A DNA stretch of 32,365 bases, taken from a virus. The stretch covers positions 1 to 32,365 of IMG/VR virus record IMGVR_UViG_3300027741_000172, one strand, 5' to 3'. Made by a program: the position numbers and the translations under genes. Positions within the stretch are counted from its first letter, which is position 1, and every line of letters starts with the position of its first letter. The notes under the pieces were generated by a model. The model did no database searches and was not told the origin of the DNA. It saw only the letters and a list, made by a program, of their open reading frames with translations. Shown piece after piece: positions 9,521 through 30,574 of this stretch.

Positions 9521-9549
9521 GACCAACCAAAAACAAAATGGAGCTAACG

Positions 9550-9987
9550 ATGGACGCAGAAGTTCAGGACGAAGTCACCCCCGTCCGACCCGACATATCC
9601 CTAGACAAACTTACGATGATCTACATAAAGATTCGTGATGCGCGTGACAACCTCACCGCAAAATACAAAGCCGACCACGCAGAGTTAGAAGAACAACTCG
9701 AAGTGCTCGAACAACAGATGCTAGACACTTGCAAAGAGCAAGGCGCTGATAGCATACGCACCCCACATGGCACGATCGTTCGTACAGTTAAGTCACGGTA
9801 CTGGACTAACGATTGGGATTCTATGTACGCCTTCATTGAAGAAGTTGGCGACTATGGCCTGTTAGAGAAGAGACTTCATCAGACACACATGAAAGAGTTT
9901 CTTGCAGAGAATCCAGACATTTACCCGAAAGGACTTAATGTCGAAAACGAATTTACCGTGGTAGTTAGACGTTCAAAGGAAAAATGA
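9550..9987 (+). CDS. Hypothetical coiled-coil phage protein, 145 aa
   Basis: ATG 9550 has GGAG (9540-9543) at ideal spacing. The in-frame ATG at 9538 has no SD and sits only about 12 bases from the probable transcription start, so 9550 is chosen. Residues 20-65 are a helical, charged coiled coil (IKIRDARDNLTAKYKADHAE...). Then come a small beta part (GADSIRTPHGTIVRTV), NDWDSMYAFI and a basic end. The order of helix, GADS.RT.HGT, SDWD and helix is seen in phage proteins encoded next to polymerase or SSB genes. No function is established. It is first in the P2 transcript. Confidence 0.72.
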   Translation: MDAEVQDEVTPVRPDISLDKLTMIYIKIRDARDNLTAKYKADHAELEEQLEVLEQQMLDTCKEQGADSIRTPHGTIVRTVKSRYWTNDWDSMYAFIEEVGDYGLLEKRLHQTHMKEFLAENPDIYPKGLNVENEFTVVVRRSKEK

Positions 9988-14197: not shown

Positions 14198-14221
14198 CCC
14201 CGCCTAGTGCGGGGATTTTTT
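14198..14221 (+). terminator. Rho-independent terminator between converging operons
   Basis: CCCCGC (14198-14203), loop CTAGT and GCGGGG (14209-14214) form a 6-bp GC stem followed by A and six T, in the orientation that ends + strand transcription. The stop codon of the - strand giant gene (14220-14222) overlaps the T-tract. The - strand side has no T-run after the stem, so termination in that direction is less certain. Confidence 0.85.
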
Positions 14222-17200
14222 ATGGGCGTTCTAGTCGGCCAGAGACTTCTCTTGTATTTTCTACGCGACCTTTAGCTTCTGCCGTCCTAGCCGCTTTACG
14301 AGACGGAGCAAGTGCATTACCAAGTAGAGGCATGTTCTTCTCGTTGAGTTCAAACCCACGTAAAGCCTTTGCGCGTTTCTCGGCATTACCTTCGAGCGCA
14401 TCTGAAAGGTTGTCACCACTGATTTGGTACGTTGGGAACTTGCGATTGAACTCGTTCATGTCCTTCATGTAGGTGCCAAACTTCTTCATGTTTTTGTTTC
14501 TAAACTCACGATCAAGATTGTTTAGCAATGCCTGACGTTCATTGAGGATGCGTTGCTGAATACCGATCGCCTTGAAGTTTACGTATTGCGTGTTAGCCAG
14601 TAAATCAGAACGGAAGCCGACAGCTTGACCAATTATTTGACCAGTAGTAAACGCATCCTTGGACAGAATCCGAGTGCCTTTGTTGTCCTTAGCGCCTTCT
14701 TTCCAATACTCATTTGCAGTGACAAAGTTTCTAAAGCCAGCGGGCAATAGTTTTTTCACACCTTTGGCCGTGTCCCCATGCGCCAGAGCAGAAAGCCCTT
14801 CAGCCATAGACACCATCATATTCACGCCAGCACCAGACTTCTCGAGCATCATGTTCATGACCTCTTCTTTGATTGTCTTGGCTTCTTTAGTGTCTCGCAA
14901 CCATAAGTTGTTGAGGCTGGTACGGCCAGAAATATCAAGCCCAGTCAATGCGTTAACAGGACCGCGCTCAAGGATGTCGGACAGCTTCTTACCACCAATT
15001 TCAGTTTCGCCAAGTTGCTTAGGCATCCAAACAGTACGGAACCAGAACTCAAAGCTCATAGACCGTAAATCCTCAGGCCAATCTTTATCTTTCAATGCTT
15101 CCCATGCCCAGCCAAGCAAGCCCATGATAGTGCTAAACATTGGTAAAGCGACATAGCCGCCGAGGATGTAAGTCGTACCTAGAGTACCAAAGAACTTCTG
15201 CACTGCCTCAACACGGGTGCGTCCGTCCATCGGCTTAATCATCTCTTTAAAGTTTTTGAGCAAGAATAGCGTTACATGCAACGGATACATCATGAACTGC
15301 GTCAGTAACTTGCCGCCCAAACCCTTCATGAATGTAGGTCGGTTGTACTCGCCATAGTTGCCCAGAGCTTCGTTGGTATCGTAGGTTGCTTGGTCTACCG
15401 CCTCTTCAAAAGATTTGCCTTCTTTTATGTTTAAGCGGAACGAGCTCATGAACATGATCTCACGAGACAAGCGCTCGGTCGAGTGCATCAGGCCACCAAG
15501 CACTAACAAGTCCACGGTACCTTTGCCAAAGTTTGTGATAGGCGAGCTTAGGTTCTCGGTAGGCGTCTTCTTATAGTCAAACACTGCGCTCGCATAAGTG
15601 GAAGTAGTCACATCACGCGCCAGCATCTCGCGTATAGCCTTGCGCTCTAACGGAGTTAAATCCTTAGCGTGTTCAATGGAAGGTGCGACCCATGATTGAG
15701 TTCCGTCTTTGTTGGTTTTGTACACGCCGTACTGCTGCCATACCTTTAGCATAGTACCCAATTCACGGGTAGCATTGAACGCGCCGTAGCGAGACAGTAC
15801 AGGCAGACCAGTCTGGAAAATACTTAAGGGTTGTAGCAAAGCAGAAGATGCGCCACCCAAATAGTAGATGTAGGAAGCTTTAGTGATACCGCCAACTATG
15901 CTGGCTGCTACGCCTTCTTTAACAGGAGAAAGAGAAGAGTCAACCCGGCCCCGCATCTCAGTCACGAACGGTTGCATACTTGGTCGGTTAGCAATCGAAT
16001 CCTGCGCAGCAGATATAGCATTACGCAACAGCGGAGCATACTTAATACGGGCAAGCTGAGTAGCCATCTTTGTAGATGTGTGTGCTACGTTACGCAGGAG
16101 GTCAGGACGGAATCCAGTTGTTCCCTTGCGGTGGATAAACTGCCGACGGAAACTTTGCTCAGGCATGGACTGTAGGTACACCTGATACACAGCGTCTTTC
16201 AAGCGTTCTTTGGCCTCACTGTCACCTAAACTTGCACCGTCAATCGTTACAAAGATGTCACGAAGTAACACGCTTGTATTACCAGAGGCTCTGCGCAGAG
16301 TGCTGATATCGTTACCAAAGTTGTACTCTTGGTCGCCGATTAGTTCTTCTAAGTTTTCAGCCCTACGCTTTTCAAACTCTTCAGTAGTTTCGTTGGGTTT
16401 CTTTTTAACGCGCTCGTCTGCAAATTGCTGCATCGCCTCATCGCGCTGAGCTTCCGTTTCGTACATAAAAAACTTACGGGTTTTCCCTGAGCCGATAGAC
16501 AGCCAGTAATCACCTTCACGTACCAACGGAAAGTATGGGCTAATCTTTGACCCCGTCTCGTAAATTGCCCTGATTTTTTTCATCAGGTTAGCTTGCTCAG
16601 CAATCGGCAACTTGGAGTTTGTAATCTGATCGTCCAACAAACGGGACATGTACTCAGACAGGACTTCAAAATGATTCTTGATGCGCTTGTATACGCGTTG
16701 ACCGTCTGTGCCAAGTTCAGCGTACATCTTGTCTAAGTTAAGACTACGTTCTTTTGCGTTGGGGTTGGACGGATCAATCTCCATCAAAGTAGACATGAAC
16801 GCAATCTTGTCGAGCTTAGCCCGCAAAGTTTTGTCTGCGCGGAATGCCCGCTCAATTTCGTTTGTTAATTCACCAGCTGACCTCAACAGTTGCAGCGTCA
16901 TGCCGTTCATGCGTTGAAGCAGATTAGAAACCGTCTTTAATTGCGGGACGTTGTTGCCAGCCCAATCAGCTAAGAATTCCGTAGTAGGTGCAGCTACCAA
17001 AGCTCTACGTTGCGCCGCGTTTGCTCTCTTCCATAACGCTGCTAAAGCAGGTATAACTTTACGGGGGTCCTGTGCCATCTGCAAAGCCGTTGCAGCTTTG
17101 CCAAACTCGTAGCCCTTTACGGACTCATTGAACTTTTCACCGACTACCTGAGCCTCACGCTCAATAGCCTTTTGACTTCTTACTACCTCTCCGACTTCTT

Positions 17201-20200
17201 GAGCTTCGTTATCAAGTCCTTCACCGATGCCGATTTGTCCAGCGTTCTGATCGCTAGGCCCAGCGATTTGGGATAGGCTGGGTCGCCACCCTTCTCTTGC
17301 TCCGCTAGTGCCTTCCACTGACTCAGTAGAGCCTTCATTTTCAATTTGCTGGTACCCACCAGCGTCTTTGAAGCGGTTTCCACGAGGTTTGAGATTTCCA
17401 CTACGGAACTCCTTATCTAAAAAGTCAAAAATGTCTTTGTTCTTAGCGACATGCTTAGTTAAGTTTTTCTCGACTTGGTCTAAATCAATAGCAGGGTAGA
17501 CCTTCAATAAGGTCATTACCCTCTGCATCTCACTAGCAAACTCGGCACCGTGATTGCGTGCTTTAAAGTGAGCCAATTCGTGGATCATTGTACCAATCAT
17601 TGATATGGCAATTTCCTCAGGACTGCCGCGCATGTCGGTCGTCGTCGGATTGATGAACATACCCTTGAATGGGACCATGATACTAACACCGTAATACTCG
17701 TTGTCAATACTTGTACCGATTGCTTGGCTTGCTAAATCACCATATTCGCCACGGCCACCGGCTACTAGAGCACCACGAAGTAATTGGAATGTTTGGCCTA
17801 TCTCAGCAAGATATTTGTCGTACCGAGCGCCAAACTTTTCACGAGCACGGTCAGAAAGAGATTCGGTTTTTATTGCCCCGTCAGCTTCCATCTGAGCTAC
17901 TAACTCTTCCATCGTACCGGGTTCAGTGTATTTTTTACCGTTTTTAACAGCGACCCATGCGTTGTCTATTACTACTACATCCCAGCCCTGCTGCGTTAAA
18001 ACTTTATCGTCTATCTCGAACCGAGTGTTGTCATGAATCATGACCTTCTTTGGGTTGATATCTTTCTGTGGAATAGTCAACTCATCAATGCGCACCGCAG
18101 TATTCTTCAAGTCATCGGCAGTAAGCTCCGGCAACTTTCTATTGTTGACATACAAAATTCCTTCACGAACTTCTACGCTATCTCCGGGTTTAATCAGAGT
18201 AAAAGCGTTATCAGATACTGGCGTTTTAGGTTCAAGGATTTCTGCGGTAGTCAGGCTACCGTCTAGATTGACATACTGAACTGTGCCAAAGTTTTTAATA
18301 CCTGCGGCCAAATCTAGTTGGCTATAGATTGCAGTGATGTAATTAAAGATTTTTTCAAAGTCGGAATTGGCTTGTTTTGAAAATCCTTGGCGGTTTAATT
18401 CAAACGGATAGCCAGCATCTTCAGGCTTAACGTCTGGAGAAGGAGATACATCAATATAAAAATCGCGTTGAATTGCCTTACCACCAAATCCGGGACGATC
18501 TGAAATAGTTCTATCAAACTGCCATAAACCATTAGATAGTACATGGGTGTTATCACCATAATTTCTTTCTATCTTTTTAGATACATAGACACGCGCAGTG
18601 CCCCAAGCAAAATTTACATTTGCAAAAGGTGTGAAATCATCAATTGGAAAATTTTTACCAAGAGATAATTTATCTGGACCATAGCCTCTATCAAACGTAA
18701 CTTCTATGTCGTCAAATAAAGGGCTTTTCCCCAACACAGGATAGTAATGAGCTGAAATGGGGAATTTAATATCCTTTTCGTCGCCACTGGAAGAGTCAAC
18801 ATACGTCTCAGGAATCTGAACAGTTACAGACGTGCCATGCCCATCAGGGAATATGTTTTTGTATTTTTCAATCTCTTTTGAATCAGAAGAAGTTTCAATT
18901 TTTATTTCGGGTACAACTTCTCCATTTTCCCGCATACGAGTAATAGCTGCCTGTATTGCGGGCGCAATAATTTGAATGTCTTCCGGGGAAAGAAAATCTT
19001 TTAGTTGTTCTAAAAGAGTAGCTGGGTTTGCCGCCATAGCAGCTTTTAATTCGTCGCCCGTAGTAATCAATCGAGACAGTTTGCCATCGCGTAAAGAAAC
19101 AACTTCTAATTTTTTGTTCTCAAACAAGAACAACATCTTGGCAACACCAAGACCACCTGACGCACGGGATGTACCTTTTACAGTACCAGCAATCTGCAAG
19201 AACTGATTACCCATCACACTAGTGGGCATACCGAGGCCGTTGTCAGTAATGTTGATAGTCCGTTTATCTTTATCTAACTTAATTGCAACCTTACCGTTTT
19301 TAACCTGACCGTTTTCAATAGCTTCTTTAATAGCATCAAAAGAGTTTTGAAACAGCTCTTTGACCGATACCGTAGTAATGTCTTCGGGTGTGCCATATAA
19401 CTTAGTACCAAGCATTTTTGCAAGACGTTGGACGTTAGCACTTGGTTTAGCACTTACTGTTTCTCCACTGATAGAAAACGTACTGTCAGCTTCCGTATCC
19501 TTACCTTTGCCAAATCCAAACATGCTACTGACGGACTGGCCGTTTATTTGAACTCCGGGGACACGCGCTTTCAAAATGTTGTCGGTTGCGACAATGAGGT
19601 CGGTCAGTGCGTTGATGTCGGTATCTTTCATACCAAGCAGATCACGCAGTGCAGAAACAAACCGAGTAAAGAATGGCATGTCTGCCTCGTAGCCGTGCGC
19701 TTGCATCAAGAAGTTCTGCATCTGTGGGTCGGTTAAACCATAGGACACAAACTCACGGGGGTCGTTGAAGATGTCTCCGTCATAGCGAAGCGCAACCATA
19801 TCCATCGACAACTTCTTCTGCTTAGCTAGGTCTTCGTATGTACGAGCCGCACTGTTCATGATGCGGATTAAATCTTGCGCTGCTCTAACTGCCGGAGTGT
19901 TTAGGTAGACACCCTTTTTGATGTACTCAAATGCAATAGCCAACTTGCGGTTAGTCGCAGCGTGCAAGAGTTCATGCAAGATAGTGATGTTGTTGATACC
20001 TTGAGAATTGCCAAATGACGCGCCACGCACATAGATAACGCGGTCACCTGTCTTGTAGTTCTCAATATAGAGCGCAATCGAACGATCCCATGCCTTAGCA
20101 TTTCTAGGAGTCTTGAGTTGCTCAGGTATTTCTTGACCTTCTTCCAGTACAACAAACTTAACACCCTGCACAAAACTGCGAAGGCGCTTAGCCAACCGAG

Positions 20201-23120
20201 CTTGGAATGGCGAGCCTGTCTTGATGACATGCGTTACAGCTTGAGCGCCAGTTGTGAACTTACTTATTCTTTCGTCGGCGGGTTCTTTGTTGATTGTTGA
20301 AGATGCACCAGTTTCCTCTTCACCAGATTCTTGAGCGGTTAAGCTTTCTTCTTGAGCGGCTAAGTTGGCTTGTACGGCTGAAACTTCGCGTGCGTTGGCT
20401 TCTAAAAACTTTTTGATGCGCTTGCCTTCTGCTGAACCGGCCAACCCAGCATCGCGTAGCTCTTGTTGGTTTTTAAGTAGCTTTGTAACTTCAGTAGTTA
20501 TCTTTGCACGCGCAGCAGCCTCATTAGTTTTACCTTCGGCTAACTGCTTAGGCAGTTCCTCAAATAGTTTTGTAATACTAGTAAGCGCACGGCGTGCTCT
20601 GCCAATCAAAGCATCGGTGGCTTTCTTCTCTACCGCCTTCTTTTCTTTTTCTTCTGCGGCTAACCGAGGACCTTTTGGCCCACGCTTTTTAGCTGGGACT
20701 ACTTGCGCAGTGGCGGCAATCTCTGGAGTAACTCTAAACTCAGCGCCTTTTGCTACTGCCCCAACAGATTCGTACTTACTTAAGTCTGCAGTTGGCACAT
20801 CCACATAGGATAGATCGCCGCCATATGACTCATTAAATGGGAGCGCAATACCGACTAAAGAATTAGTAAACGATGGGTTTTGACCAACTTCACCGGGACG
20901 GTTACCACGCCACAAACGAGTCATACCCTCAGGTACAGACGGCACAGCCTTGTTAATGTTGTCGGCTTTTTTAATCAGCGAACGAATACGGGGTGTATCT
21001 AGGTAATCTTGCCCTTCGTAACTTACTGTAGCGGGCTTTGGAGTTTCTCTTCCATTAGCGCTAGTAGCATCCGGTTTAGTAGGAACCACTCTAGGTCGTT
21101 CACCTCCTCCAACTCCTGTGGCGGTGGGTTCTTTATTGGTTGCGCCAGCCACTTTAGCGCTTGTTCCACTTGGGGCTGCGTTAGGTTGTCCAACATTTGT
21201 TTCTCCTTTAGCTTCACTTTCGGCAAGCGCATCGGCTTCATCTTCGTCTTGTATTTGAGTTTTTGCTGTATCAATAGCTTCTTGAGCGTCTTGCACATAG
21301 CCTTCTGACAGTAACTCCTGCGCTCTGGCTCTGATTCTGTCGTCTTGTGGTTTAGCTGCAAGTTTGGCGGTGTCGCGCTTTTGTTGTTGCTCTTGCGCAG
21401 TAATCCTAGCCTCAGCCATACGACGTGCGTCTTCATCAGGGACGCCTTGTGTCTCGGCAATCTCTGTGGCTAACTGAGCAATCGTAGCTTCCCTTGCTTC
21501 TGGTGCTACGGCAAGTGGTGCTGGCTGTTGTAAGTCTGTGCTTGGGCGCACTTCTCCTAATTCACCTAGGCTAGTATCAGGTGGCGCGGCTTGTTCTTGT
21601 TGCTGTTCTTCTTGTTGTCGCTGGCGCTGTTGCTGATCTTGCGGAGTCAAGAATCCTTTTTGCCTAGCAATTAGTTCAGACAAGCCTTCGTAACTTGAGT
21701 CACGTTGATATGCGCCTTCACGGGGGGCACCAATCTTAGATAGTGCTTCACCTGCTTTTTGAGCGCCTTTAGTAAGGGCAACAGTTCCGCCAGCAGTAAC
21801 ACCCGCCTGTAACACTGTTTGGCGTACAGTTTCTTCCATCTGTTTGTAGAAGTCGGCAAGGCTTGGGTTCTTATTGAGGCCAATCTTGGGGGCCATATCA
21901 GTAAGGTATTGCGTAGCAGTGGTAGCTAATTCAGGTGGAATTTCTGTAGCAATAGCTCTGGCTAAATACTTTGGAACACTATCTACACCATACTTAGCAA
22001 TGTGCGCTTTCAACCCTGCAAGGGCTTTAGTCATACCGAAACGCTCAAAGAACACCTCGGCAGTAGCCATAGCCACTGCTCGCGTAGCGGCAGCTTGACC
22101 AGATAAACCAGCGGAACGGCCTTCGCTATAAGAGTCGCCAAATTGTTGGATGGCTGCTTGGGCTAATAAAGGCGCTGAGCCTCCAGTCATTGCAGTCATG
22201 GCTATGAATGGCGCTTGGGAAGCCAAACTAGTCATCGCTCCCTGAGCCGACTTCTCAAAAATACTCTTACCCTGTGGGATAGCACCTTCACGAGCATCCT
22301 CAATGCGGCGTGCACCCATCAAGTCTTTACTGAACTGTTTGTCGCCAGTTAAGTCAGCGTAAGCACTTAATAAACCTAGACCCGATTTTGTATATTGTGA
22401 ACGAACTCCAGCACCAACTCGGTCCAAGAAGTCGGCGTTTTCAAGTTCTTTAGCGCGTTCCGCAGCATAAAACCCAGCTTTTTCTCCAACCACATCGCGT
22501 GTCATTTGCTGGTAATCGCGCTTTAAATTTCCTGTAGACTGCCCCATAGCATCGCGGGTGGCGTCTTCTTCCGATCTACCTTGCTCCATAAAGCGCTGTT
22601 TCTGCGCTTCAAGTCGAGGATCAAATTTAGACAGAGTAGGGCTTACATTTTTATCAAGCGCTTCATACCTACCAGCGACTACTTTAGCCGCGCGGCCATA
22701 AACAGTGGGAGATTCGGCTAGTTTTGCTAATGCTCCAGCGCGTTCTTCTGCGGGCAGTGCATTAAGGTGTGCTTCTACTGCGCTAACAAACTGAGGGTTT
22801 AAAAGTTTATCTTCCGTAGAGGCAATAGGTGGAAGCGGCGTTTTTTCTAAGACACTTTGTTCTTTTTCTTTTTTAATTTTTAGGTAATCTTCGGCAGTAA
22901 TAGGCGCACGAATACCGCTATTGTCGCGGGATAGCATTGATGAAAACGAATCATCCTTAGCCAACGCAGATGAAAGCCCTAATTTTCTTTCGGCGGGCGC
23001 TGGTTTTTCCTCAGCAGGGGCAGATTGTTTTTCTAGATAACCTAATATCTTGGCTTTAGCCGCAGCAGGGTCTTCGGTAGCCATTTCATACTGCTGGCCT
23101 TTGTACTCATAAATAGGCAT
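14220..23120 (-). CDS. Giant polyvalent virion protein, 2966 aa (ART, two metallopeptidases, GHKL ATPase, PLxRFG/LPD38-like)
   Basis: Domains in order: a short N-terminal MPIYEYKGQQYEM element; a helical, hydrophobic region (about 200-460); a Gln/charged linker (480-720); a candidate ADP-ribosyltransferase (R738 in LWRG, S750-F-T752, E794 in GAEF); a coiled coil; zincin 1 with HELLH at 1049-1053 and a downstream EFVSYG; a GHKL ATPase with N-box E1255/N1259/D1262, DNGLGM at 1293-1298 and SGGLG at 1321-1325; a SprT-like zincin 2 with HELAH at 1847-1851 and H1857; a long helical part; a PLxRFG-like PVLSRYG near 2440-2446; and an LPD38-like region with membrane-like helices (about 2500-2700). Phage polyvalent proteins are thought to be packaged and injected to protect or reprogram. 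It is last in the virion operon. Confidence 0.85.
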   Translation of the reverse strand: MPIYEYKGQQYEMATEDPAAAKAKILGYLEKQSAPAEEKPAPAERKLGLSSALAKDDSFSSMLSRDNSGIRAPITAEDYLKIKKEKEQSVLEKTPLPPIASTEDKLLNPQFVSAVEAHLNALPAEERAGALAKLAESPTVYGRAAKVVAGRYEALDKNVSPTLSKFDPRLEAQKQRFMEQGRSEEDATRDAMGQSTGNLKRDYQQMTRDVVGEKAGFYAAERAKELENADFLDRVGAGVRSQYTKSGLGLLSAYADLTGDKQFSKDLMGARRIEDAREGAIPQGKSIFEKSAQGAMTSLASQAPFIAMTAMTGGSAPLLAQAAIQQFGDSYSEGRSAGLSGQAAATRAVAMATAEVFFERFGMTKALAGLKAHIAKYGVDSVPKYLARAIATEIPPELATTATQYLTDMAPKIGLNKNPSLADFYKQMEETVRQTVLQAGVTAGGTVALTKGAQKAGEALSKIGAPREGAYQRDSSYEGLSELIARQKGFLTPQDQQQRQRQQEEQQQEQAAPPDTSLGELGEVRPSTDLQQPAPLAVAPEAREATIAQLATEIAETQGVPDEDARRMAEARITAQEQQQKRDTAKLAAKPQDDRIRARAQELLSEGYVQDAQEAIDTAKTQIQDEDEADALAESEAKGETNVGQPNAAPSGTSAKVAGATNKEPTATGVGGGERPRVVPTKPDATSANGRETPKPATVSYEGQDYLDTPRIRSLIKKADNINKAVPSVPEGMTRLWRGNRPGEVGQNPSFTNSLVGIALPFNESYGGDLSYVDVPTADLSKYESVGAVAKGAEFRVTPEIAATAQVVPAKKRGPKGPRLAAEEKEKKAVEKKATDALIGRARRALTSITKLFEELPKQLAEGKTNEAAARAKITTEVTKLLKNQQELRDAGLAGSAEGKRIKKFLEANAREVSAVQANLAAQEESLTAQESGEEETGASSTINKEPADERISKFTTGAQAVTHVIKTGSPFQARLAKRLRSFVQGVKFVVLEEGQEIPEQLKTPRNAKAWDRSIALYIENYKTGDRVIYVRGASFGNSQGINNITILHELLHAATNRKLAIAFEYIKKGVYLNTPAVRAAQDLIRIMNSAARTYEDLAKQKKLSMDMVALRYDGDIFNDPREFVSYGLTDPQMQNFLMQAHGYEADMPFFTRFVSALRDLLGMKDTDINALTDLIVATDNILKARVPGVQINGQSVSSMFGFGKGKDTEADSTFSISGETVSAKPSANVQRLAKMLGTKLYGTPEDITTVSVKELFQNSFDAIKEAIENGQVKNGKVAIKLDKDKRTINITDNGLGMPTSVMGNQFLQIAGTVKGTSRASGGLGVAKMLFLFENKKLEVVSLRDGKLSRLITTGDELKAAMAANPATLLEQLKDFLSPEDIQIIAPAIQAAITRMRENGEVVPEIKIETSSDSKEIEKYKNIFPDGHGTSVTVQIPETYVDSSSGDEKDIKFPISAHYYPVLGKSPLFDDIEVTFDRGYGPDKLSLGKNFPIDDFTPFANVNFAWGTARVYVSKKIERNYGDNTHVLSNGLWQFDRTISDRPGFGGKAIQRDFYIDVSPSPDVKPEDAGYPFELNRQGFSKQANSDFEKIFNYITAIYSQLDLAAGIKNFGTVQYVNLDGSLTTAEILEPKTPVSDNAFTLIKPGDSVEVREGILYVNNRKLPELTADDLKNTAVRIDELTIPQKDINPKKVMIHDNTRFEIDDKVLTQQGWDVVVIDNAWVAVKNGKKYTEPGTMEELVAQMEADGAIKTESLSDRAREKFGARYDKYLAEIGQTFQLLRGALVAGGRGEYGDLASQAIGTSIDNEYYGVSIMVPFKGMFINPTTTDMRGSPEEIAISMIGTMIHELAHFKARNHGAEFASEMQRVMTLLKVYPAIDLDQVEKNLTKHVAKNKDIFDFLDKEFRSGNLKPRGNRFKDAGGYQQIENEGSTESVEGTSGAREGWRPSLSQIAGPSDQNAGQIGIGEGLDNEAQEVGEVVRSQKAIEREAQVVGEKFNESVKGYEFGKAATALQMAQDPRKVIPALAALWKRANAAQRRALVAAPTTEFLADWAGNNVPQLKTVSNLLQRMNGMTLQLLRSAGELTNEIERAFRADKTLRAKLDKIAFMSTLMEIDPSNPNAKERSLNLDKMYAELGTDGQRVYKRIKNHFEVLSEYMSRLLDDQITNSKLPIAEQANLMKKIRAIYETGSKISPYFPLVREGDYWLSIGSGKTRKFFMYETEAQRDEAMQQFADERVKKKPNETTEEFEKRRAENLEELIGDQEYNFGNDISTLRRASGNTSVLLRDIFVTIDGASLGDSEAKERLKDAVYQVYLQSMPEQSFRRQFIHRKGTTGFRPDLLRNVAHTSTKMATQLARIKYAPLLRNAISAAQDSIANRPSMQPFVTEMRGRVDSSLSPVKEGVAASIVGGITKASYIYYLGGASSALLQPLSIFQTGLPVLSRYGAFNATRELGTMLKVWQQYGVYKTNKDGTQSWVAPSIEHAKDLTPLERKAIREMLARDVTTSTYASAVFDYKKTPTENLSSPITNFGKGTVDLLVLGGLMHSTERLSREIMFMSSFRLNIKEGKSFEEAVDQATYDTNEALGNYGEYNRPTFMKGLGGKLLTQFMMYPLHVTLFLLKNFKEMIKPMDGRTRVEAVQKFFGTLGTTYILGGYVALPMFSTIMGLLGWAWEALKDKDWPEDLRSMSFEFWFRTVWMPKQLGETEIGGKKLSDILERGPVNALTGLDISGRTSLNNLWLRDTKEAKTIKEEVMNMMLEKSGAGVNMMVSMAEGLSALAHGDTAKGVKKLLPAGFRNFVTANEYWKEGAKDNKGTRILSKDAFTTGQIIGQAVGFRSDLLANTQYVNFKAIGIQQRILNERQALLNNLDREFRNKNMKKFGTYMKDMNEFNRKFPTYQISGDNLSDALEGNAEKRAKALRGFELNEKNMPLLGNALAPSRKAARTAEAKGRVENTREVSGRLERP

Positions 23121-23128
23121 GGCGCGCC

Positions 23129-25405
23129 TTATCGTTGGTTATCGAGATTGATTATGTTAGAACCTCCACCGCCACCACCCGGTTTTGTTGGGTTTGTAGC
23201 AGTTTGACGACTCCGTATATTAGCAGCAAGTGCGTCTTCTGCTTTAGCCATGCCTTGAGTATCTCCGTTTTCGTACGCCCTTGTCCAATCTGGATCAGAA
23301 AACTTAGAACTCTTAACTACTTTCTCAACCTCAGTGTCCGAAGTTGCAGAGGTACGGAATGTATCAACCGCAGCTTTAAGTTGCGGATCGTTCTTAATTT
23401 GTGTTGCAGTTTTGGCAACAGCAGCAGCTTTAATACGAGCCTCAAACGCTTTCGGTGATTCGCCTTCTTTTGGTTTCTCTCTGTTCAACATGTCTTCAAT
23501 GTTGAATTTAAGCGCAGCTTCGTTGAACTTAGGTTCTTTGCCAGCCCCGCCAGCCCCACCTGTGCCAGTCGGTTTAACAGTAGACGCCATACGAGCCGCC
23601 AAGTTAGCGACGTCCATAGCCTTCTTACCGCGAGCGGCTTCTGCGGCATCATTAGATTTGCGTGCTGCGTCTGCTGCGGTACGGGCTTGAGTAAATGCGC
23701 CAATGTTTTCTTTGCGCTCTGCGTCGGCCAAGTTAATTCTCATGCCAATCATTGAGCGTTGGAGGTCTTGGTCGGCTTTAAGGATAGGTGCATAAGCATC
23801 GGCAAACTCTCCGCTGGCTTCGCCTACGCCACGCAAGAAATTGTTACCTTTTAACATACCACGTGCCGCCCTTAAAGCGCTTAGACCTTTACCTTGTGAT
23901 AAGTTTTCTTTACCTTGCTCACCCAGTTTGGTAACTAAATCACCAATGTTGCCGTAGGAACTTGGCCCTGCGGCTTCTCTATACAACGCCATTTCTTTTT
24001 TTGTACGGGTATCGTATTCGTCATCAGTCATGTATTTGGGTCTTTGCCCAGCCACATTTGCAAGGAGTTGTGGGTATATGTTAGTAAGTGCAGCGTACTG
24101 AGTTGGATTACCTCTAGATGGCAACAACGCACCGAGCCCTTGGGAAGAATCAACAAGTGAGCCTTCTTCACCATCAAAAGCCAATATGCCACCCTTAGCA
24201 GCGTTCACAACACCATCGGCCATTTGCTGTGGCATAGCGCCAGCGATACCATTTTGTATAGATTTGTTTGTTTCTTGCCCTTGTACTTTTTCTATCTGTT
24301 GAGCAATCAACATGGCCATTTGCTTGTCACCACGCGCTTGTGCATTTTGAAATGCGTCTTGTAGTTGTTTCAAGCTGAGCGTACCAATAATATCTTCGGT
24401 GTTATCCGAACTTGTTACTGAGTCATCATGAGCGCCGTTATAGCGTTTAACTTCTCCACCATCGGCGTACCCGTAAACTGAACCGCCGTCAGCTTTGTTT
24501 AATTGGTTAAGTCCATACGCAGTCAAGCCCAAAGAACCCGCAGCTTGCAGCCCAGTAGGAGGAGCCTGATACATCTGCGTAGTAGATTGCTGACCCAGTG
24601 GTAAACCACGAATCATGTCGGACATGAAGCCCAACTGTTTGTATGGATAGTTCTGTTGGTTGGTAAAATCTTGGTACGCAGTATCCAAACCTTTTTGTGC
24701 TTGGGCTTGTTGTTGCGCGCCGTATCCAGCTTGCAACTGATTGATACCCATTTCTTGACCGTACTGGTTTTGACCTAATTGGCCTAAATTGGACGATGCT
24801 TGGTTCATCAAACCAAAACCTGCAAGTTGATTCTGCAAATTCTGGTTGTATTGCTGTTGAGCGTTATTGAATGCAGTGTTGTAGCCTTGACCGACAATTT
24901 GGTTTAGACCCGTATTACGATTACGTTCATTCTCCGCAGCCATGATTGCTTCACGGGAACCGCCAAACGCACCGGCTTGCGTAGCTGCGCTCTGCTGTTT
25001 AGTAGCACCAATATCATACGCACGATTAGCCTCCGCTAACTGAGGAGCCAAGGACATTTGCAAGTAGGGGTTCATGTACCCACCGACTTGGTTTTGGAAT
25101 CCGTAAGGGTTAGCCTGACCTGCAACACCTAAACCACCAATGCCAGCCATAGTCGCGCCAGCAGTAGCCTCACCTGTTTGTGGGGCAACTGTCATGCCTT
25201 GGGCGTTCTGCATAGCCTGCTGCTGCATTGGGGAAAACCCTGCAATACGTGCTTGGTCGTATTGTTGATAGGGGTTTTGGGTGACGTCGGTTAACGCCTG
25301 ACCTTTAGCCAGTATGTCTTTAGCATACGGTTTCGCCCATTCGGGCAGTTCTGTACTAGCCTTTTGTTCTGCGGCTGGTTGTTGGCTGTTACCTAAATCA
25401 GGCAT
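23129..25405 (-). CDS. Gln/Ala-rich virion protein, probable internal/ejection protein, 758 aa
   Basis: AGGAG precedes the ATG, and the start overlaps the previous gene by 8 bases. The first 300 residues are rich in Gln, Asn, Ala and Gly with helical heptad-like blocks (ANRAYDIGATKQQSAATQ, NNAQQQYNQNLQNQL). They begin with NPYQQYDQARIAGFSPMQQQ, an element seen near the N-terminus of structural proteins in other phages. Two short glycine motifs follow (YADGGEVKRY, AKGGILAFDGEE), then a helical C-terminal half and a GGGGGG-containing tail. The position directly before the giant polyvalent gene and the composition suggest an internal or DNA-ejection protein. Exact function not shown. Confidence 0.65.
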   Translation of the reverse strand: MPDLGNSQQPAAEQKASTELPEWAKPYAKDILAKGQALTDVTQNPYQQYDQARIAGFSPMQQQAMQNAQGMTVAPQTGEATAGATMAGIGGLGVAGQANPYGFQNQVGGYMNPYLQMSLAPQLAEANRAYDIGATKQQSAATQAGAFGGSREAIMAAENERNRNTGLNQIVGQGYNTAFNNAQQQYNQNLQNQLAGFGLMNQASSNLGQLGQNQYGQEMGINQLQAGYGAQQQAQAQKGLDTAYQDFTNQQNYPYKQLGFMSDMIRGLPLGQQSTTQMYQAPPTGLQAAGSLGLTAYGLNQLNKADGGSVYGYADGGEVKRYNGAHDDSVTSSDNTEDIIGTLSLKQLQDAFQNAQARGDKQMAMLIAQQIEKVQGQETNKSIQNGIAGAMPQQMADGVVNAAKGGILAFDGEEGSLVDSSQGLGALLPSRGNPTQYAALTNIYPQLLANVAGQRPKYMTDDEYDTRTKKEMALYREAAGPSSYGNIGDLVTKLGEQGKENLSQGKGLSALRAARGMLKGNNFLRGVGEASGEFADAYAPILKADQDLQRSMIGMRINLADAERKENIGAFTQARTAADAARKSNDAAEAARGKKAMDVANLAARMASTVKPTGTGGAGGAGKEPKFNEAALKFNIEDMLNREKPKEGESPKAFEARIKAAAVAKTATQIKNDPQLKAAVDTFRTSATSDTEVEKVVKSSKFSDPDWTRAYENGDTQGMAKAEDALAANIRSRQTATNPTKPGGGGGGSNIINLDNQR

Positions 25406-25880
25406 GGTTATGCTCCTGTAAGAAATCCGCGAAATCTTCGTGCGCCAGTACAGTACGGGCTTCTAGTGAGATTTCACGCATGTGGCTAAAGCCACCCATT
25501 AAGAATGCGACTGAGCCATATAGCTCAACGCCCATTTGTTTTAACCACCACGCAGCTTGAAGATCACGTTTGACAGGAGATTTCTGCAAGTCGTTTGAGT
25601 CTAACCAAGCGTTTATACAAGTCATCATTATGGGCAACAAGTACCCTTTGTTACGTTCAAAGAACGGATTCTGAGGCATAAAGAACATTAGGTTTAGGAA
25701 CACTCGATTTATGTCGTCACCCTTAACATCTTTGTCCTTATCTACAAGATCGTCCCAAATCTCAACCGCATCCATAACGGTGCTTAGGAATACCAAAGCG
25801 TTGCTATCCCCGCAACAAGCTCTTTCACGTAGCTCGTTTCGTTTCTCCACCCATTCTGGGGCTAAGCGGTTGTCGCTCAT
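25398..25880 (-). CDS. Conserved-type phage virion-operon protein, 160 aa
   Basis: The start overlaps the previous stop (ATGA 25877-25880). The protein is soluble and helical, with many aromatic residues: AVEIWDDLVDKDKDV, INRVFLNLMFF, INAWLDSNDL, a central Trp pair, and GGFSHMREIS followed by a C-terminal helix with AHEDFADFL. It has no membrane span or known catalytic motif. The same IWDDLVD...INRVF...NPFF...INAWL..G..HMREIS order is familiar from unannotated phage proteins. Placement between two large virion proteins suggests a structural or assembly role. Confidence 0.68.
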   Translation of the reverse strand: MSDNRLAPEWVEKRNELRERACCGDSNALVFLSTVMDAVEIWDDLVDKDKDVKGDDINRVFLNLMFFMPQNPFFERNKGYLLPIMMTCINAWLDSNDLQKSPVKRDLQAAWWLKQMGVELYGSVAFLMGGFSHMREISLEARTVLAHEDFADFLQEHNHA

Positions 25881-27634
25881 GCAGGTAAATATTTAGAAGA
25901 ACGGCTGTTATGTGCAACCTTATCTTTACCTACTGTCTTCTTACGTGCTGACTGGATTCTGTCCATCATTGCGTATAGCTTACGAGCACCAGCTTCAGTG
26001 GAGCCATTGCCCAACTCAGAAACAATACGGGCTGGAACTACGAATTCACCGTCGGCTAAACGAGCGGGTTGCTTTTTGCCAATCACAGCAGGTATCGAAT
26101 CAGATACGCCATCCCCCGGCCCGCGAAGTAAGCGCCCGCCATCAGAATAACCACCCAAGTTATAGTGCGCATCGGAGAGTCCTCCTGTTGCCTGCTGTTG
26201 AACATACTGCTGATCGTCAGGGTTGTAAGCGTATTTAAGCCCGGGGTTTGCGTCTTGTTGTTTTGTTCTTAACCCGCGAAGCAACGAGCCTAAAGGACCA
26301 ACAGGTTGATCATCAGGTACGTCAAAATCTGAACGTCCAATACCACCCCCAGCCAACCGAGTGCCCTGCATGTTAGGTTCACCAGACATAGCGTCCACAG
26401 TGCCGCCACCAGACGGAGCCATGCTTTGCATCATATTAGTAGAGCGGGGGTCTTGATAGGGCGTAGCAAAAGACGATGTAGTCATGTTTGCCATTGGGTA
26501 CATGGTATTTGCACCTAACGTGGCTTGGTTAGACATCTGCTCAACAGGTCCACCACCAGCAAAATGGTAGAGGTCTTTAGCCGCAGAAGCAGAAATTGGG
26601 GAGTACGAAGGGCTGAAATACTTTTGTTGACGACCGTAATTACCACTTCCGTATAACATTTGATCGTACGAAGGTACGTCAGGGGCAGGTAATGGGTTTG
26701 TTTTGTCCGCGCTGTATGAATACCGCTGACCCATATCTTTGTCTGGTGCGGCTGGCGCTGCGGGATCTTTTTTCATACCGTAGGCTACGCTTCCAAGAGC
26801 AGCAACGGAAGTTTTGGGGTTTGCAGAAATAAAATCACCTGCGTTACTAAACGATGCACCGCTTCTAATAGCTGAAGCACGATCGGCGGCGTTCATGTCT
26901 GCAAAAGATGATGGTGTTGCCGTCGGTGTCGGTGTGGGAGAACTTAACCCCATGCCATCAATGTTATATTGTGGCCCACCCGCTGCTTGTACTGCTTGAG
27001 CCGGTTGGATACCTGCTGTCGGGTTTGTTGCCCCAAATGATTCTGCGGGAGTCATCGTAAGCCCATTGACCCCACCTTGCGTAGCAGCATTAAAAGCTTG
27101 AGTAGAACTTGCAAGAGGCGTTGCCCCCGCCGCCACGTTTCCAGTTGTTGCTGCTATAGAAGGTACAGCACTTTGTTGAGCGGCAATATTAGCGGCGGAA
27201 CGTGCGGCTTCTGTAGCCTCTAGCCCCTGAGCAGCCGATGCCCCTGCGTTTGTTGCATTTACTCCCACTTGCGAAGCACCGGCAGCACCAGCCGAACCAG
27301 CCAGACCAGCGCCACCATAAGCGCCGAGGCCAGCCATAATGCCTTGCTTCAAACTACCTGTACGCGCTGTTTGCAGTGCGCCAACAATACCAGCGGCTCC
27401 CCATGCTTGCATACCGGGAATCATCATTAGGCCCGCGCCAGCAACCATAGGCAAAATAGCGGAAAGGAATCCCGCTTCAGGAAGTCCAGTTTGCGGATTG
27501 ATAGTTAAAGACCCACCATGAGCCATAGCAATTTTTTGAAGGCTGGCTACTTCGCCTTTGTCCATATGGACGAGCATCTTGTCTTTGCCACGACCGTGGG
27601 ATGCTAAATGTTTGGCAGCAAGTTGTAGGCTCAT
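25877..27634 (-). CDS. Ala/Gly-rich virion protein with GDG...SDSIPA motif, 585 aa
   Basis: GAGGC precedes ATG 27634. The N-terminus (GRGKDKMLVHMDKGEVASLQ, then NPQTGLPEAGF) leads into a hydrophobic segment of about 55-115 (AILPMVAGAGLMMIPGM, AGLGAYGGAGLAG) that could cross or insert in a membrane. The middle is low-complexity Ala/Gly/Ser/Pro, including PTPTPTATP. The C-terminus has GPGDGVSDSIPAVIG, ARLADGEFVVPARIVSELGNG and a last helix. This conserved cassette ends tail or internal virion proteins in many phages. It is probably an internal/ejection or tail-tip protein. Several FAGGG/LAGGG motifs occur between 370 and 450. Confidence 0.7.
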   Translation of the reverse strand: MSLQLAAKHLASHGRGKDKMLVHMDKGEVASLQKIAMAHGGSLTINPQTGLPEAGFLSAILPMVAGAGLMMIPGMQAWGAAGIVGALQTARTGSLKQGIMAGLGAYGGAGLAGSAGAAGASQVGVNATNAGASAAQGLEATEAARSAANIAAQQSAVPSIAATTGNVAAGATPLASSTQAFNAATQGGVNGLTMTPAESFGATNPTAGIQPAQAVQAAGGPQYNIDGMGLSSPTPTPTATPSSFADMNAADRASAIRSGASFSNAGDFISANPKTSVAALGSVAYGMKKDPAAPAAPDKDMGQRYSYSADKTNPLPAPDVPSYDQMLYGSGNYGRQQKYFSPSYSPISASAAKDLYHFAGGGPVEQMSNQATLGANTMYPMANMTTSSFATPYQDPRSTNMMQSMAPSGGGTVDAMSGEPNMQGTRLAGGGIGRSDFDVPDDQPVGPLGSLLRGLRTKQQDANPGLKYAYNPDDQQYVQQQATGGLSDAHYNLGGYSDGGRLLRGPGDGVSDSIPAVIGKKQPARLADGEFVVPARIVSELGNGSTEAGARKLYAMMDRIQSARKKTVGKDKVAHNSRSSKYLPA

Positions 27635-28006: not shown

Positions 28007-30574
28007 TTATCTCCTACCATCTGGGCGAACATCAATACGTGGAGCGCCTAACTGCCACTGCGTACCAAGGTCTGATGAAGAAATCTTAAATGCCATCTGA
28101 CGTCCACGAATCCGCACATAGACCTGTTGGGTAAATTGCTGGACGTTATATGTTGTTGTACTGGCGTAAGACTGCGCGCTGTTTACAAAGGGATTATCTG
28201 AAGAACCGTAATTTGCTCCGGGGTTTTGACGCGGTCTTACTGTAAAGTTAGTGGAGGGCGCTGCTGAGGTGGAGCCATCAAAAGTGATGTCGGGAATAAG
28301 TCTCCAAACAAAACCAAAATTATGACCGTCACCAATATCAAAATCCGAGGATTGAACATAGGCATCAATAGCAGTGGGCGTGCTAGTCTCGTTGTTGTCC
28401 ACAGTAGTTTCATGGTACACAACAGCACCATTTGTGTAAGCACCACTAGCGTTATATCCAATAGCCGCCATAGGTTCGGCACGTAATGGGCTATCCAACC
28501 AAGCAGTACGTGGGCGCACAGTTGTGCCGTTAAATGTGCCGTAGTACCAAGTGCGCTCAAGGTGGTTATAGATTACATAGCGGTCTATCAAACTATTGGG
28601 TGTACCCGCTGTCCCTGTCCCATTACCACCATCAGAAGTGGTTCCTGTAATAGACGGGTAGAACCACCAGATTTCGTTGTAACCTTCATTAGTTCCGCAA
28701 TGCACTTGGAACGCTTCTGTCAAGTTAATGTTGCCATAGATGTACTGACGTAACGCGCAAGGTAGTGTTTCCACGCGACCAGAGTACATATAGAACTTAT
28801 CTGTCCCCATCCAATAAGTGACGTTGTTAACCACTTGCATTGCATTAGGGCTAACAATAGAAATGTTGTCGGCAAGAATTTGACTACCCCAAACATATGG
28901 AGCGCCTAGATATTGGAATGAGTAGATAGCCGCATCAGTTACTACCAATATTTCTTGGCGTGTTTGTATTGCAGTAACAATAGTAGAACCGTGGCTTAGA
29001 CGGATACCACCTGCTTGGTTGGTAATAGACGGAGTCCATGTAACAAGCGTGTTTTGGTCAGACCAGCGAACTTGCAAAGGGTCTTGGGCTACCGTCGCAT
29101 ACACACCCGTTGGGTCGTTACAACCAAAAGCAAAAGTGAAACGTGAAGCATCAGATACCAACACAAAGTTAGCAACGGATGGGCAGGTTGTATCAGGTGT
29201 AAACGAACCAGATTTTGTAACTATAGCCGTACTTGCTTTAACAATTTGTCCACGGTCATAGACGTTAGGGCTTCCGTTATTTGCCCAGTAGTACATAGCG
29301 CCGCCACGCGGGTTAAACACTAAGTCTTCGCCGTAGTTAGACTGACTCCATAAACGCAACTGAATACCCACAGAAAGACCCGCTGGTGCAGCTAGTCCCC
29401 ATCCTGATGCAGTAGAAGGAAACTGAGAAACTAATTCACCACTAGCATGGGCAGATGCTGGCGTATTGCTTACGCCACGGGTAATAGTTCCAGCAAGCGT
29501 GCTTCCGCTAACCGTTGTGTATGTAATAGTTTCAATTCCAATAAACACAACTCCGCCAGCGCCCGTGATGGTTGTAGAGGCTACCGCAGTGGTTGTATTA
29601 GTATTCCAAATAGAACCCGTACCTGTACCAGACACGTTAGAAAGAATGTATGTACCTGCGGCAACACCTGTGCCAGTAACAACCATGCCAACGTAAATAG
29701 TTCCAGAGGCAAGTGTTCCGACAGTCAACACACCCGTAGCCGAGATGGTAGAAGTCGTCATGGACGCTGCACCATTGTTAAAACTTGTAGTAGATGCAAG
29801 CGTGATTGCAGTTGTTGAACTAGCAGTAACTGCCGTACCACCATTTATCGTAGATGAAGCCGAAGGTCCGCTAGAGCCACCCCAACCGCCAACACCCCAA
29901 CCCGTACCATAAGTAAAAGTTGTATTACCCGTAGTTAATTGATAATTAAATGTAGCGGTAACAGCAGATGTGCTACCGGATGTTGCCGCACTCTTTGCAG
30001 TGACTGTGTACTGGCTAGAACTTACATAGGTAACAATTTGAAACTCACCAGTTAAATCGGTAGCGGGTATGCCATTAACAGTACCAGACACACTAGTGAT
30101 GTTTACAAAATCCCCTACCTGCGCCCCATGTCCGGGGTCATTAACTATGACACTTGTTGAAGCATTTGTTGTAGTAAAAGCGTTGGCTACGCCTGTACTT
30201 GTTAAACGTATAGGAGTTACGTCGTTATACGCACCGCCAGAAGAGTTTTGGATGTAATACTTGAGGTTAGTTCCTACTGCCAAAAGGTTGTAGCCAGTCA
30301 GGTTAATCCAATTCCACATAGCCTTAGCAATACCCCAATACGAGCCAGTACTAGACGTTACAGTAGCGGCAGTCGTAAGCCCGCTAGTAGATATAAGGGT
30401 TGTAACGGGTTCTGTTGTAGCAATCGAACCGCCGTCACGTTGCCAACCACCAATCTTCTCTGGGTAGCCAGAACGGAAACGAATTTTGTCGCAGTCAAAC
30501 CAACCGCCCTCGTTAGATAGGGTAGTGCCTTCGCGGTTAACGCCGGGTCTAAACTGTAGTTTTTGTAATGGCAT
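28007..30574 (-). CDS. Tail hub / stabilisation-like virion protein, 855 aa
   Basis: AGGAA precedes ATG 30574. The N-terminus is FRPGVNREGTTLSNEGGWFD, then CDKIRFRSGYPEKIGGW, a recurrent start of large phage structural proteins with beta-propeller-like folds. These have been compared with the P22 gp10 hub, and I infer a similar role here. Residues about 138-208 (NDPGHGAQVGDFVNITSVSG) and about 250-350 (VGMVVTGTGVAAGTYILSNV, GTGTGSIWNT) are beta-rich inserts typical of exposed virion decorations. The rest (380-830) returns to Trp/Tyr-rich repeats (YYWANNGSPNVYDRG, NVTYWMGTDKFYMYSG) as in propeller blades. No enzyme motif is seen. Confidence 0.68.
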   Translation of the reverse strand: MPLQKLQFRPGVNREGTTLSNEGGWFDCDKIRFRSGYPEKIGGWQRDGGSIATTEPVTTLISTSGLTTAATVTSSTGSYWGIAKAMWNWINLTGYNLLAVGTNLKYYIQNSSGGAYNDVTPIRLTSTGVANAFTTTNASTSVIVNDPGHGAQVGDFVNITSVSGTVNGIPATDLTGEFQIVTYVSSSQYTVTAKSAATSGSTSAVTATFNYQLTTGNTTFTYGTGWGVGGWGGSSGPSASSTINGGTAVTASSTTAITLASTTSFNNGAASMTTSTISATGVLTVGTLASGTIYVGMVVTGTGVAAGTYILSNVSGTGTGSIWNTNTTTAVASTTITGAGGVVFIGIETITYTTVSGSTLAGTITRGVSNTPASAHASGELVSQFPSTASGWGLAAPAGLSVGIQLRLWSQSNYGEDLVFNPRGGAMYYWANNGSPNVYDRGQIVKASTAIVTKSGSFTPDTTCPSVANFVLVSDASRFTFAFGCNDPTGVYATVAQDPLQVRWSDQNTLVTWTPSITNQAGGIRLSHGSTIVTAIQTRQEILVVTDAAIYSFQYLGAPYVWGSQILADNISIVSPNAMQVVNNVTYWMGTDKFYMYSGRVETLPCALRQYIYGNINLTEAFQVHCGTNEGYNEIWWFYPSITGTTSDGGNGTGTAGTPNSLIDRYVIYNHLERTWYYGTFNGTTVRPRTAWLDSPLRAEPMAAIGYNASGAYTNGAVVYHETTVDNNETSTPTAIDAYVQSSDFDIGDGHNFGFVWRLIPDITFDGSTSAAPSTNFTVRPRQNPGANYGSSDNPFVNSAQSYASTTTYNVQQFTQQVYVRIRGRQMAFKISSSDLGTQWQLGAPRIDVRPDGRR

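Follow-up and report, generated by a model that had tools for sequence, protein, structure and literature searches.

A giant ejection-type phage protein that carries a GHKL ATPase-metallopeptidase cassette

Results

Overview and gene setting

The 2966-residue protein encoded on the minus strand of the phage DNA analysed here (14220-23120, ATG start) very probably consists of an ejection chassis that bears a cassette formed by a GHKL ATPase and a zincin-type metallopeptidase (Z2); the safest statement is that the ejection chassis carries an ATPase-peptidase cassette. This architecture, the conservation of the predicted active sites, the behaviour of the cassette as a unit and the setting in an ejection operon were read from sequence comparisons and structure models. 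The open reading frame was exactly that of the initial annotation, which had placed the product among the phage polyvalent proteins, an assignment supported by its nature as an ejection-type giant protein at the end of an ejection operon and by PLxRFG- and LPD-type regions in the protein or its family.

The window, that is, the whole stretch of DNA analysed, is an entire virus record of 32,365 bases that was classed as linear, and is therefore perhaps a fragment of a genome; a record of 45,078 bases (L005) was identical to it over 28,143 bases of the compared stretch. No near-identity DNA match to the first 25 kb of the window was found among deposited phages. The replication genes (DNA polymerase, helicase, exonuclease and primase/helicase) lie on the plus strand, and the minus strand carries an endolysin, a virion structural protein, small genes, a homologue of DNA-ejection proteins and then the giant gene. 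The latter shares its strand with two late virion genes, those for the 855-aa virion structural protein (28007-30574; phrog_3287, E = 1.6e-46) and for the 758-aa ejection-protein homologue (23129-25405; phrog_4287, E = 2.4e-19). This homologue is directly upstream, in the gp15/gp51 place, so that the giant gene occupies the place of gp16 and of the N4 vRNAP. A 160-aa protein (25398-25880, minus strand) was assigned to the place of N4 gp52 and T7 gp14 by position and size only. The three products measure 160, 758 and 2966 residues in the window, and 150, 644 and 3500 residues, calculated from coordinates, in N4 (gp52, gp51 and gp50).

A homologue of the 758-aa ejection protein was encoded directly upstream in 121 of the 156 giant ORFs having an upstream ORF (85/118 with the cassette and 36/38 without it; 60/88 clusters). 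In 35 of the 156 the upstream ORF showed no detectable ejection-protein homology, 33 of these being beside cassette proteins. A terminase search across eight records matched two of them, one above the cut-off. Three further genes of the window were recorded: a minor-head-protein family match at 9538-9987 on the plus strand (phrog_13900, E = 1.9e-24), amid the replication genes and on the opposite strand to the giant gene; a small protein at 2290-2769, plus strand, with similarity to nucleotide-kinase families in its C-terminal part (31 PHROG families matched at E<=0.05); and a 585-aa protein within the structural operon (25877-27634, minus strand), with no match in Pfam (E<=1) or PHROGs (E<=0.01).

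The ejection chassis

The HExxH motif occurs just twice in the protein, at residues 1049-1053 and 1847-1851, and the two different HExxH domains proposed at the outset were both conserved and differed in kind; conservation led us to reject the idea that they are chance motifs. The first domain, Z1 (residues 970-1189; 19554-20213, minus strand), is of the kind found in phiKMV-type internal virion proteins and in C1 of the N4 vRNAP. Its HELLH (residues 1049-1053; 19962-19976, minus strand) was located by motif search, and H1049, E1050, H1053 and a later glutamate, E1123, were identical in 19/19 homologous rows of alignment A7, from whose 22 rows three ART-only ones were set aside; the 19 rows include LUZ19 gp37 and the Limnohabitans phage protein, and two of them (the window and L013) have an identical Z1.

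Profile searches of the PDB with Z1 yielded an "Internal virion protein" of 1337 aa (9sfn_G, E = 7e-19) and, weakly, a "Tetrameric ejection protein (gp48)" (8vb2_A; E = 0.0019 for the whole sequence, 0.12 for the best single stretch). In a ten-protein set, LUZ19 gp37 (1337 aa) and the Limnohabitans phage protein were matched at about 1e-12. When predicted viral structures were searched with the Z1-bearing model, names of internal virion or core proteins stood on the top two named matches and on four of the 13 at E<=0.001. VIA-align superposed model residues 264-491 on residues 2133-2366 of N4 gp50 (Z = 10.0, 191 aligned, 3.9 A, 16% identity), the other rows with Z about 10 being helical bundles on a different part of the model, and hhalign gave a probability of 92 for Z1 against N4 C1, with HELVH (2228) and EFMAWGL of N4 opposite HELLH and EFVSYGL. 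With the plain HMM of Z1, N4 C1 was not significant (E = 0.99, Z being set to 100000). N4 gp50 is described in a part of PMC12633501 as an ejected protein made up of NTD, RNAP, C1 (2124-2375, with a conserved HExxH) and C2, and the region of N4 containing a C1-type domain is needed for encapsidation according to section 8 of PMC5512222. Z1 belongs to the ejection chassis as a regular component, found also in phiKMV-like internal virion proteins, and its kinship with C1 of the N4 vRNAP is less secure: the C1-type HExxH domain of the gp16/N4-vRNAP class was recognised through 9sfn_G, the resemblance to N4 itself being middling.

At the other end of the chassis, the PLxRFG region named in the initial annotation was clearly recovered by NCBIfam tail-700 over residues 2195-2930 (14331-16538, minus strand; E = 1.2e-99, 334.7 bits against a cut-off of 100). 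The C-terminus also matched the C-terminal end of the DarB-like family phrog_10089 (E = 1.8e-49) and 27 isolate-phage records at 23-28% identity; among PDB sequences nothing usable was found with the C-terminal region, and no N4 chain was matched by the tail profile. Residues 1990-2190 (16551-17153, minus strand) are LPD39-like, with 22.8 bits in the window protein against a Pfam cut-off of 27, which the relative L008 passes with 29.8. LPD38, initially suggested for this protein, was rejected, since the Pfam search gave no LPD38 and the weak, below-cut-off LPD39-like similarity was found instead. In 17 cassette-bearing relatives chosen for diversity, LPD39 was detected in seven and LPD38 in three (E<=0.01), with ART-PolyVal in three, LPD22 in two, and SLT, lysozyme, NUDIX and FtsK-gamma in one each.

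The N-terminal part (residues 1-540; 21501-23120, minus strand) is a second exchange hotspot, because residues 61-480 are replaced between near-identical phages: in the giant gene of L003 (L013/L003), although otherwise near-identical to that of the window, these residues have 18-45% amino acid identity per 60-residue block. No PDB relative of residues 1-689 was found by sequence at E<=1.

The ADP-ribosyltransferase (ART) domain that had been placed at residues 700-830 could not be confirmed. The corresponding slot (residues 690-830; 20631-21053, minus strand) is variable and resembles an ART by motif only: BLAST homologues were found in L010-L013, which are the same or a near-identical phage, and in three further giant proteins whose backbone differs (L091/L092, L093 and L094), and an arginine, a serine and a glutamate or aspartate were invariant across five rows, two of them nearly identical, a pattern that suits an R-S-E-type ART but proves nothing. 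The slot gave no match in Pfam at E<=5 or E<=10 or in PHROGs at E<=1, no meaningful PDB sequence match and no phage tblastn match. In fold searches, for which the slot was modelled with its neighbours, no ART was present among the 50 PDB rows listed of each. One viral-structure match named "ART-PolyVal-like" (E = 1.9e-4) cannot be assigned to the slot, given that the model was searched together with the neighbours, the matched part is not shown and the list is led by Z1-type proteins; the VIA rows of the second model were mostly helical bundles on residues 123-245, uninformative for the slot, and anthrax lethal factor, listed by Foldseek at E = 0.097, was discarded as too weak a match. The version of this slot borne by the window phage (20631-21053) was unmatched in most cassette relatives, and two hints under the cut-off came from the slots of L014 and L030, one of a GNAT (E = 0.018), the other of a Kdo-type kinase (E = 0.046).

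The GHKL ATPase and the second metallopeptidase

The cassette sits at the junction of Z1 and the LPD39-like region (residues 1190-1960; 17241-19553, minus strand). Its first component, at about residues 1225-1650, is the GHKL ATPase that had been predicted, here confirmed by profile matches of relatives, by model matches to HtpG/Hsp90 and by invariant motifs; together with an S5-type transducer it was mapped to residues 1219-1625 (18246-19466, minus strand). The motifs are an N box (E1255/N1259), DNGxGM (1293-1298), GGLG (1322-1325), K1328, GT (1429-1430) and R1577. Thirteen GHKL positions (E1255, N1259, D1262, D1293, G1295, G1297, M1298, G1322, G1325, K1328, G1429, T1430 and R1577) were invariant in 38/38 representatives, obtained by clustering at 80% identity the 72 cassette ORFs minus seven truncated or odd ones (L043, L069, L075, L076, L078, L080 and L081). 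The SRE motif is present in HtpG and in rIIA proteins, and through it we take R1577 to be equivalent to the catalytic arginine of Hsp90.

The window protein alone scored 20.7 bits for HATPase_c, under the Pfam cut-off of 26.4; the relative L008 passed HATPase_c_3 (36.6 against 25), and HATPase_c was found at E<=0.01 in 17/17 cassette-bearing proteins picked from the 72 for diversity, 11 of which also matched top6b. An AlphaFold2 model of the cassette (pLDDT 82, pTM 0.73) retrieved with Foldseek, in its best 50 rows, HtpG/Hsp90/TRAP1, MORC (MORC2/MORC3) and one GyrB (E = 6e-11 to 5e-9); the TM-scores by model length were low (0.23-0.30) because only one domain of the model was matched. VIA tied three folds, Hsp90B (Z = 19.0), Top6B (18.7) and GyrB (18.6). 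In a PDB profile search the best 60 of 168 rows all bore Hsp90-type or heat-shock names (best E = 2e-7). Hsp90 proper was not reached at family cut-offs (PRK14083, 27.6 bits, its equivalog cut-off being 455; HtpG, 21.8 against 371).

The GHKL family HMM scored three of the four rIIA-family proteins tested like HtpG: PD38 rIIA at 1.8e-7, Atuin gp154 (rIIA family) at 7.6e-7 and N4 rIIA at 3.2e-6, with HtpG at 2.1e-6 and MutL at 1.8; GyrB and T4 rIIA were not reported. The hhalign probabilities were 97 for Atuin, 95 for HtpG, 94 for PD38, 90.7 for N4 rIIA, 86.8 for MutL, 61 for GyrB and 3.3 for T4 rIIA, and alignment A2 against an rIIA alignment reached 96.6. A divergent cassette (L077) matched the rIIA of Microcystis phage LMM01 at 6e-7. 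The window and L008 cassettes had no match to PHROG rIIA families at E<=1, and the possibility that the cassette is rIIA itself was rejected for want of an rIIA family match.

The second component, Z2 (residues 1734-1929; 17334-17921, minus strand), was delimited by conservation, by the model and by PDB profile matches. Its HExxHxxxxxH motif (residues 1847-1857; 17550-17582, minus strand) is also typical of YgjP and Wss1-type enzymes. H1847, E1848, H1851 and H1857 were identical in 38/38 representatives, which brings to 17 the invariant motif positions over the two cassette enzymes (13 in GHKL and four in Z2), and H1857 would be the third ligand of the zincin site. In the model, Z2 is composed of helices, three strands, the HExxH helix and further helices. 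The leading PDB matches of its profile were zincins, albeit weak ones (best E = 0.0027), among them Wss1p (0.0084) and the S. pombe WLM protease (0.024); in Pfam it stayed under the cut-offs for YgjP (20.4 against 26 bits) and WLM (13.1 against 26 bits).

GHKL and Z2 behave as one exchangeable cassette

The first cassette scan gave 72 loci, and a broader scan of viral contigs gave 225 confirmed stretches, of which the best 80 were kept; the cassette is therefore common in uncultured phages. The counts below rest on these and on the best 80 of 230 Z1 stretches (Z1-LPD39-tail), not on all relatives, and clustered counts are given besides, since some contigs appear under more than one locus id. 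Among the 80 Z1 relatives, GHKL and Z2 were both present in 33, neither was present in 47 and none carried one alone, by which their independent acquisition was rejected; after clustering at 90%, there were 25 clusters with the cassette and 25 without it. The distance from Z1 to LPD39 was 28-57 residues in relatives without the cassette and 742-988 in those with it. Both components were found in 80/82 cassette clusters, the other two being cut by contig ends. That GHKL and Z2 form a single swappable cassette, never apart in the intact ORFs tested, is well supported. The unusual arrangement noted initially, a GHKL ATPase between two peptidases, stands as far as position is concerned, but Z1 belongs to the chassis, and GHKL with Z2 makes up the swappable unit.

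In L006 and L007, 43-45% identical to the window protein, the stretch from about 1185 to 2000 is missing, whereas L008/L009 share residues 1220-1925 at 42%, with no BLAST match before them and a tail match of just 22%. Thirteen ORFs (nine clusters) had the reversed order GHKL-Z2-Z1; it is firm in L099 (Z1 match, E = 3e-29), and the other 12 had partial Z1 matches (E = 3e-4 to 7e-9) with a second HExxH within the partial match or 35-43 residues before it. Between the window and L003, DNA identity was 97-100% over residues 541-1200 and 92-100% over residues 1981-2966, and 72-94%, with indels, over cassette residues 1201-1860, the left border of the divergence being sharp and the right one gradual; the cassette and the N-terminal part have therefore been exchanged while the rest of the giant protein stayed. 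The cassettes of the window and L013 differ with dS = 0.47 and dN = 0.06 (dN/dS about 0.13), indicating purifying selection. Both enzymes look active, judging by their conserved predicted active sites and by this selection.

In deposited phages, 0/50,697 records held at least 80% of any of the three cassettes tried, and in isolate phages the GHKL-type matches spanned no more than 36% of the cassette (window and L077 queries) or were absent (third query). With the window cassette, 104 records were matched at E<=10 (best about 0.06-0.1), the 60 rows listed consisting of rIIA/rIIB, topoisomerase II/gyrase, one htpG and unannotated or hypothetical proteins, with one "virion structural protein" beneath the same GHKL stretch; with the L077 cassette, 156 records were matched at E<=0.01, and the tellingly named ones among the 40 listed were of rIIA type. 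Plasmid matches covered at most 23% of the query, all at the GHKL end (12 of 16 rows listed). The first search of genome contigs confirmed no cassette, and a broader profile gave four MAG loci: L095 has GHKL and Z2, L096 has Z2 in a 419-aa frame, L097 matched just 127 residues at the end of a stretch, and L098 (ORF from 3262, 2817 aa; Acidobacteria MAG) has GHKL followed by HETTH with a glutamate replacing the third histidine. The last is read as a distant or altered version of the cassette, on a contig that is perhaps a prophage. A possibly split giant protein was seen in L079 (5575-11183), where the cassette apparently has a gene of its own, 901 aa long between stop codons or 812 aa if read from a TTG, and a 970-aa ORF comes next.

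Discussion

Proposed function and alternative explanations

The explanation we consider best overall, and give an even chance, is that of an injected chassis with a GHKL ATPase coupled to a metallopeptidase, acting early on a host protein or a DNA-bound protein. In a phage with a short tail (podovirus type), the giant protein would be the third and large ejection protein, the counterpart by position of T7 gp16, phiKMV-like gp37 and the N4 vRNAP; it would be packaged, and by analogy with the relatives of Z1 it would be injected with the DNA. The chassis (N-terminal part, Z1, LPD39-like region and PLxRFG C-terminus) would bring into the cell a cargo that here and in many uncultured relatives may be an ATP-driven clamp of Hsp90/rIIA type joined to a YgjP/Wss1-like metallopeptidase. 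With ATP bound, the clamp would close around its target, either a host protein or one attached to the incoming DNA, and the transducer would hand the captured protein to Z2 for cutting, with the outcome that a defence or regulatory factor would be removed in the first minutes of infection. The ATP-gated step is inferred from two intact active sites, neither of which occurred without the other in the family's intact ORFs, and we rate it slightly below even; against such a coupling, the ATPase and the peptidase may act separately, and the ATP-dependent proteases so far known are driven by AAA+ motors, not by GHKL. A role in host takeover or anti-defence is plausible, given the rIIA/Hsp90-type GHKL, the injection chassis and the recombining cassette. 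A bolder reading, a good deal less likely, sees in the cassette an ATP-dependent protease of a new kind, powered by a GHKL clamp rather than an AAA+ motor and delivered from the phage head as interchangeable cargo, which would destroy a defence or regulatory protein before phage gene expression.

DNA clamps, too, make use of GHKL domains, and Top6B and GyrB are not set apart from Hsp90 by VIA. In the corresponding alternative, which is unlikely, the GHKL domain would close around the incoming phage DNA, as in Top6B, GyrB and MORC, and Z2 would cut the proteins bound to it (restriction enzymes, nucleases or crosslinked proteins), as a protease guarding the DNA rather than a killer of free host proteins. 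The tied VIA scores, the MORC2/MORC3 entries returned by Foldseek, the top6b matches and the similarity of Z2 to Wss1p and the S. pombe WLM protease, with the precedent of Wss1/SPRTN, are in line with it; however, Hsp90 and rIIA lead by sequence profile, no DNA-binding family was matched confidently in the window protein in Pfam, PHROGs or NCBIfam, and the YgjP and WLM scores lie under the Pfam cut-offs. That the cassette is a virion-borne rIIA, directed at the membrane or at abortive-infection systems of RexAB type and having the peptidase for its variable C-terminal part, is distinctly less probable. The GHKL similarity to PD38, Atuin and N4 rIIA, at the level of HtpG and with MutL at 1.8, the L077 match to LMM01 rIIA and the A2 alignment would all suit it, as would the description of rIIA as a GHKL domain with a highly variable C-terminal domain (in a part of PMC7824862), but this similarity is limited to about 110-210 residues at the GHKL end, PHROG rIIA families are unmatched at E<=1, T4 rIIA was aligned at a probability of 3% and went unreported by the HMM, and the three rIIA proteins aligned have no HExxH.

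Self-processing, another unlikely reading, would have Z1, Z2 or both cutting the giant protein before or after ejection to free its domains, and the GHKL domain acting as a chaperone that refolds the chain once it has passed the narrow tail. Autoproteolysis has been proposed for the zincins of polyvalent proteins, with the processing of P1 DdrB cited, in section 8 of PMC5512222, and an Hsp90-like fold would suit refolding; the same section nevertheless describes the N4 vRNAP as packaged unprocessed, and recombination exchanges the cassette but leaves the chassis constant. The chassis can do without the cassette, which 47/80 relatives with the same chassis lack, and for this reason self-processing is, beside the DNA clamp and the packaged rIIA, the least natural account of the cassette. 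Finally, some relatives lack the cassette and virion proteins tolerate insertions, as would be expected if it were a degenerate passenger kept for size or folding only; this scarcely credible reading is already largely refuted by conservation, namely the motif positions invariant in 38/38 representatives and the dN/dS against L013.

Under the preferred reading, that of an ejection chassis with a GHKL-Z2 cargo, a rule suggests itself for polyvalent giants, a constant ejection chassis (Z1 and the PLxRFG end, common in part to phiKMV-like proteins and the N4 vRNAP) plus exchangeable cargo. The cassette, by which host proteins may be disabled as infection begins, ties the rIIA puzzle, the role of a GHKL ATPase in counter-defence by phages, to a module that can be expressed and for which an active-site mutant is obvious.

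Comparison with known systems

Polyvalent proteins and ejected giants bearing zincins are already known, as described in parts of PMC5512222, and the window protein resembles the former in its several enzyme-like domains, MPTases, putative LPD-type regions and late-gene setting; the several disparate enzymatic domains in one chain by which polyvalent proteins are defined are here GHKL and two HExxH domains. The main text of PMC5512222 contains none of the terms GHKL, HSP90, histidine kinase and gyrase; ATPase occurs 26 times, in the listed passages with reference to SWI2/SNF2, and topoisomerase, MutL and chaperone once each, MutL in a reference title. No account of a GHKL domain joined to a metallopeptidase in a virion protein stood among the papers listed in literature searches, and the GHKL-Z2 two-enzyme unit seems to be undescribed.

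The cassette shares with Hsp90/HtpG the GHKL N domain and the transducer, by sequence and model, and differs from it in having a zincin-type domain in place of the dimerisation domain. With Wss1/WLM and YgjP it shares the HExxHxxxxxH with an aromatic residue after it and weak profile matches, but Z2 is below the family cut-offs and fused to GHKL. The GHKL core is also similar in sequence to that of rIIA, including the SRE motif; in contrast, the three rIIA proteins aligned have no HExxH, the cassette has no rIIA family match, and rIIA genes are early and non-virion. In PMC7824862, rIIA is linked to a counter-defence that is poorly understood.

LUZ19 gp37, a phiKMV-like internal virion protein in the place of T7 gp16, as is the window protein, and a 1576-aa protein of Limnohabitans phage YIMV22061 both share Z1 with its HExxH...E and an E-[FL]-x-[AT]-[YW]-GL stretch, and differ in having no GHKL-Z2 cassette match among the matches listed. 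N4 gp50 (Schitoviridae) is likewise the giant last protein of an ejection operon, with an HExxH domain (C1), a large C-terminal region and an enzymatic cargo. The C-terminal regions of the two proteins have no detectable sequence relation, and no RNA polymerase family was matched in the window protein in Pfam, PHROGs or NCBIfam; the cargo of N4 gp50 is an RNA polymerase placed before C1, whereas that of the window protein is GHKL-Z2, placed after Z1.
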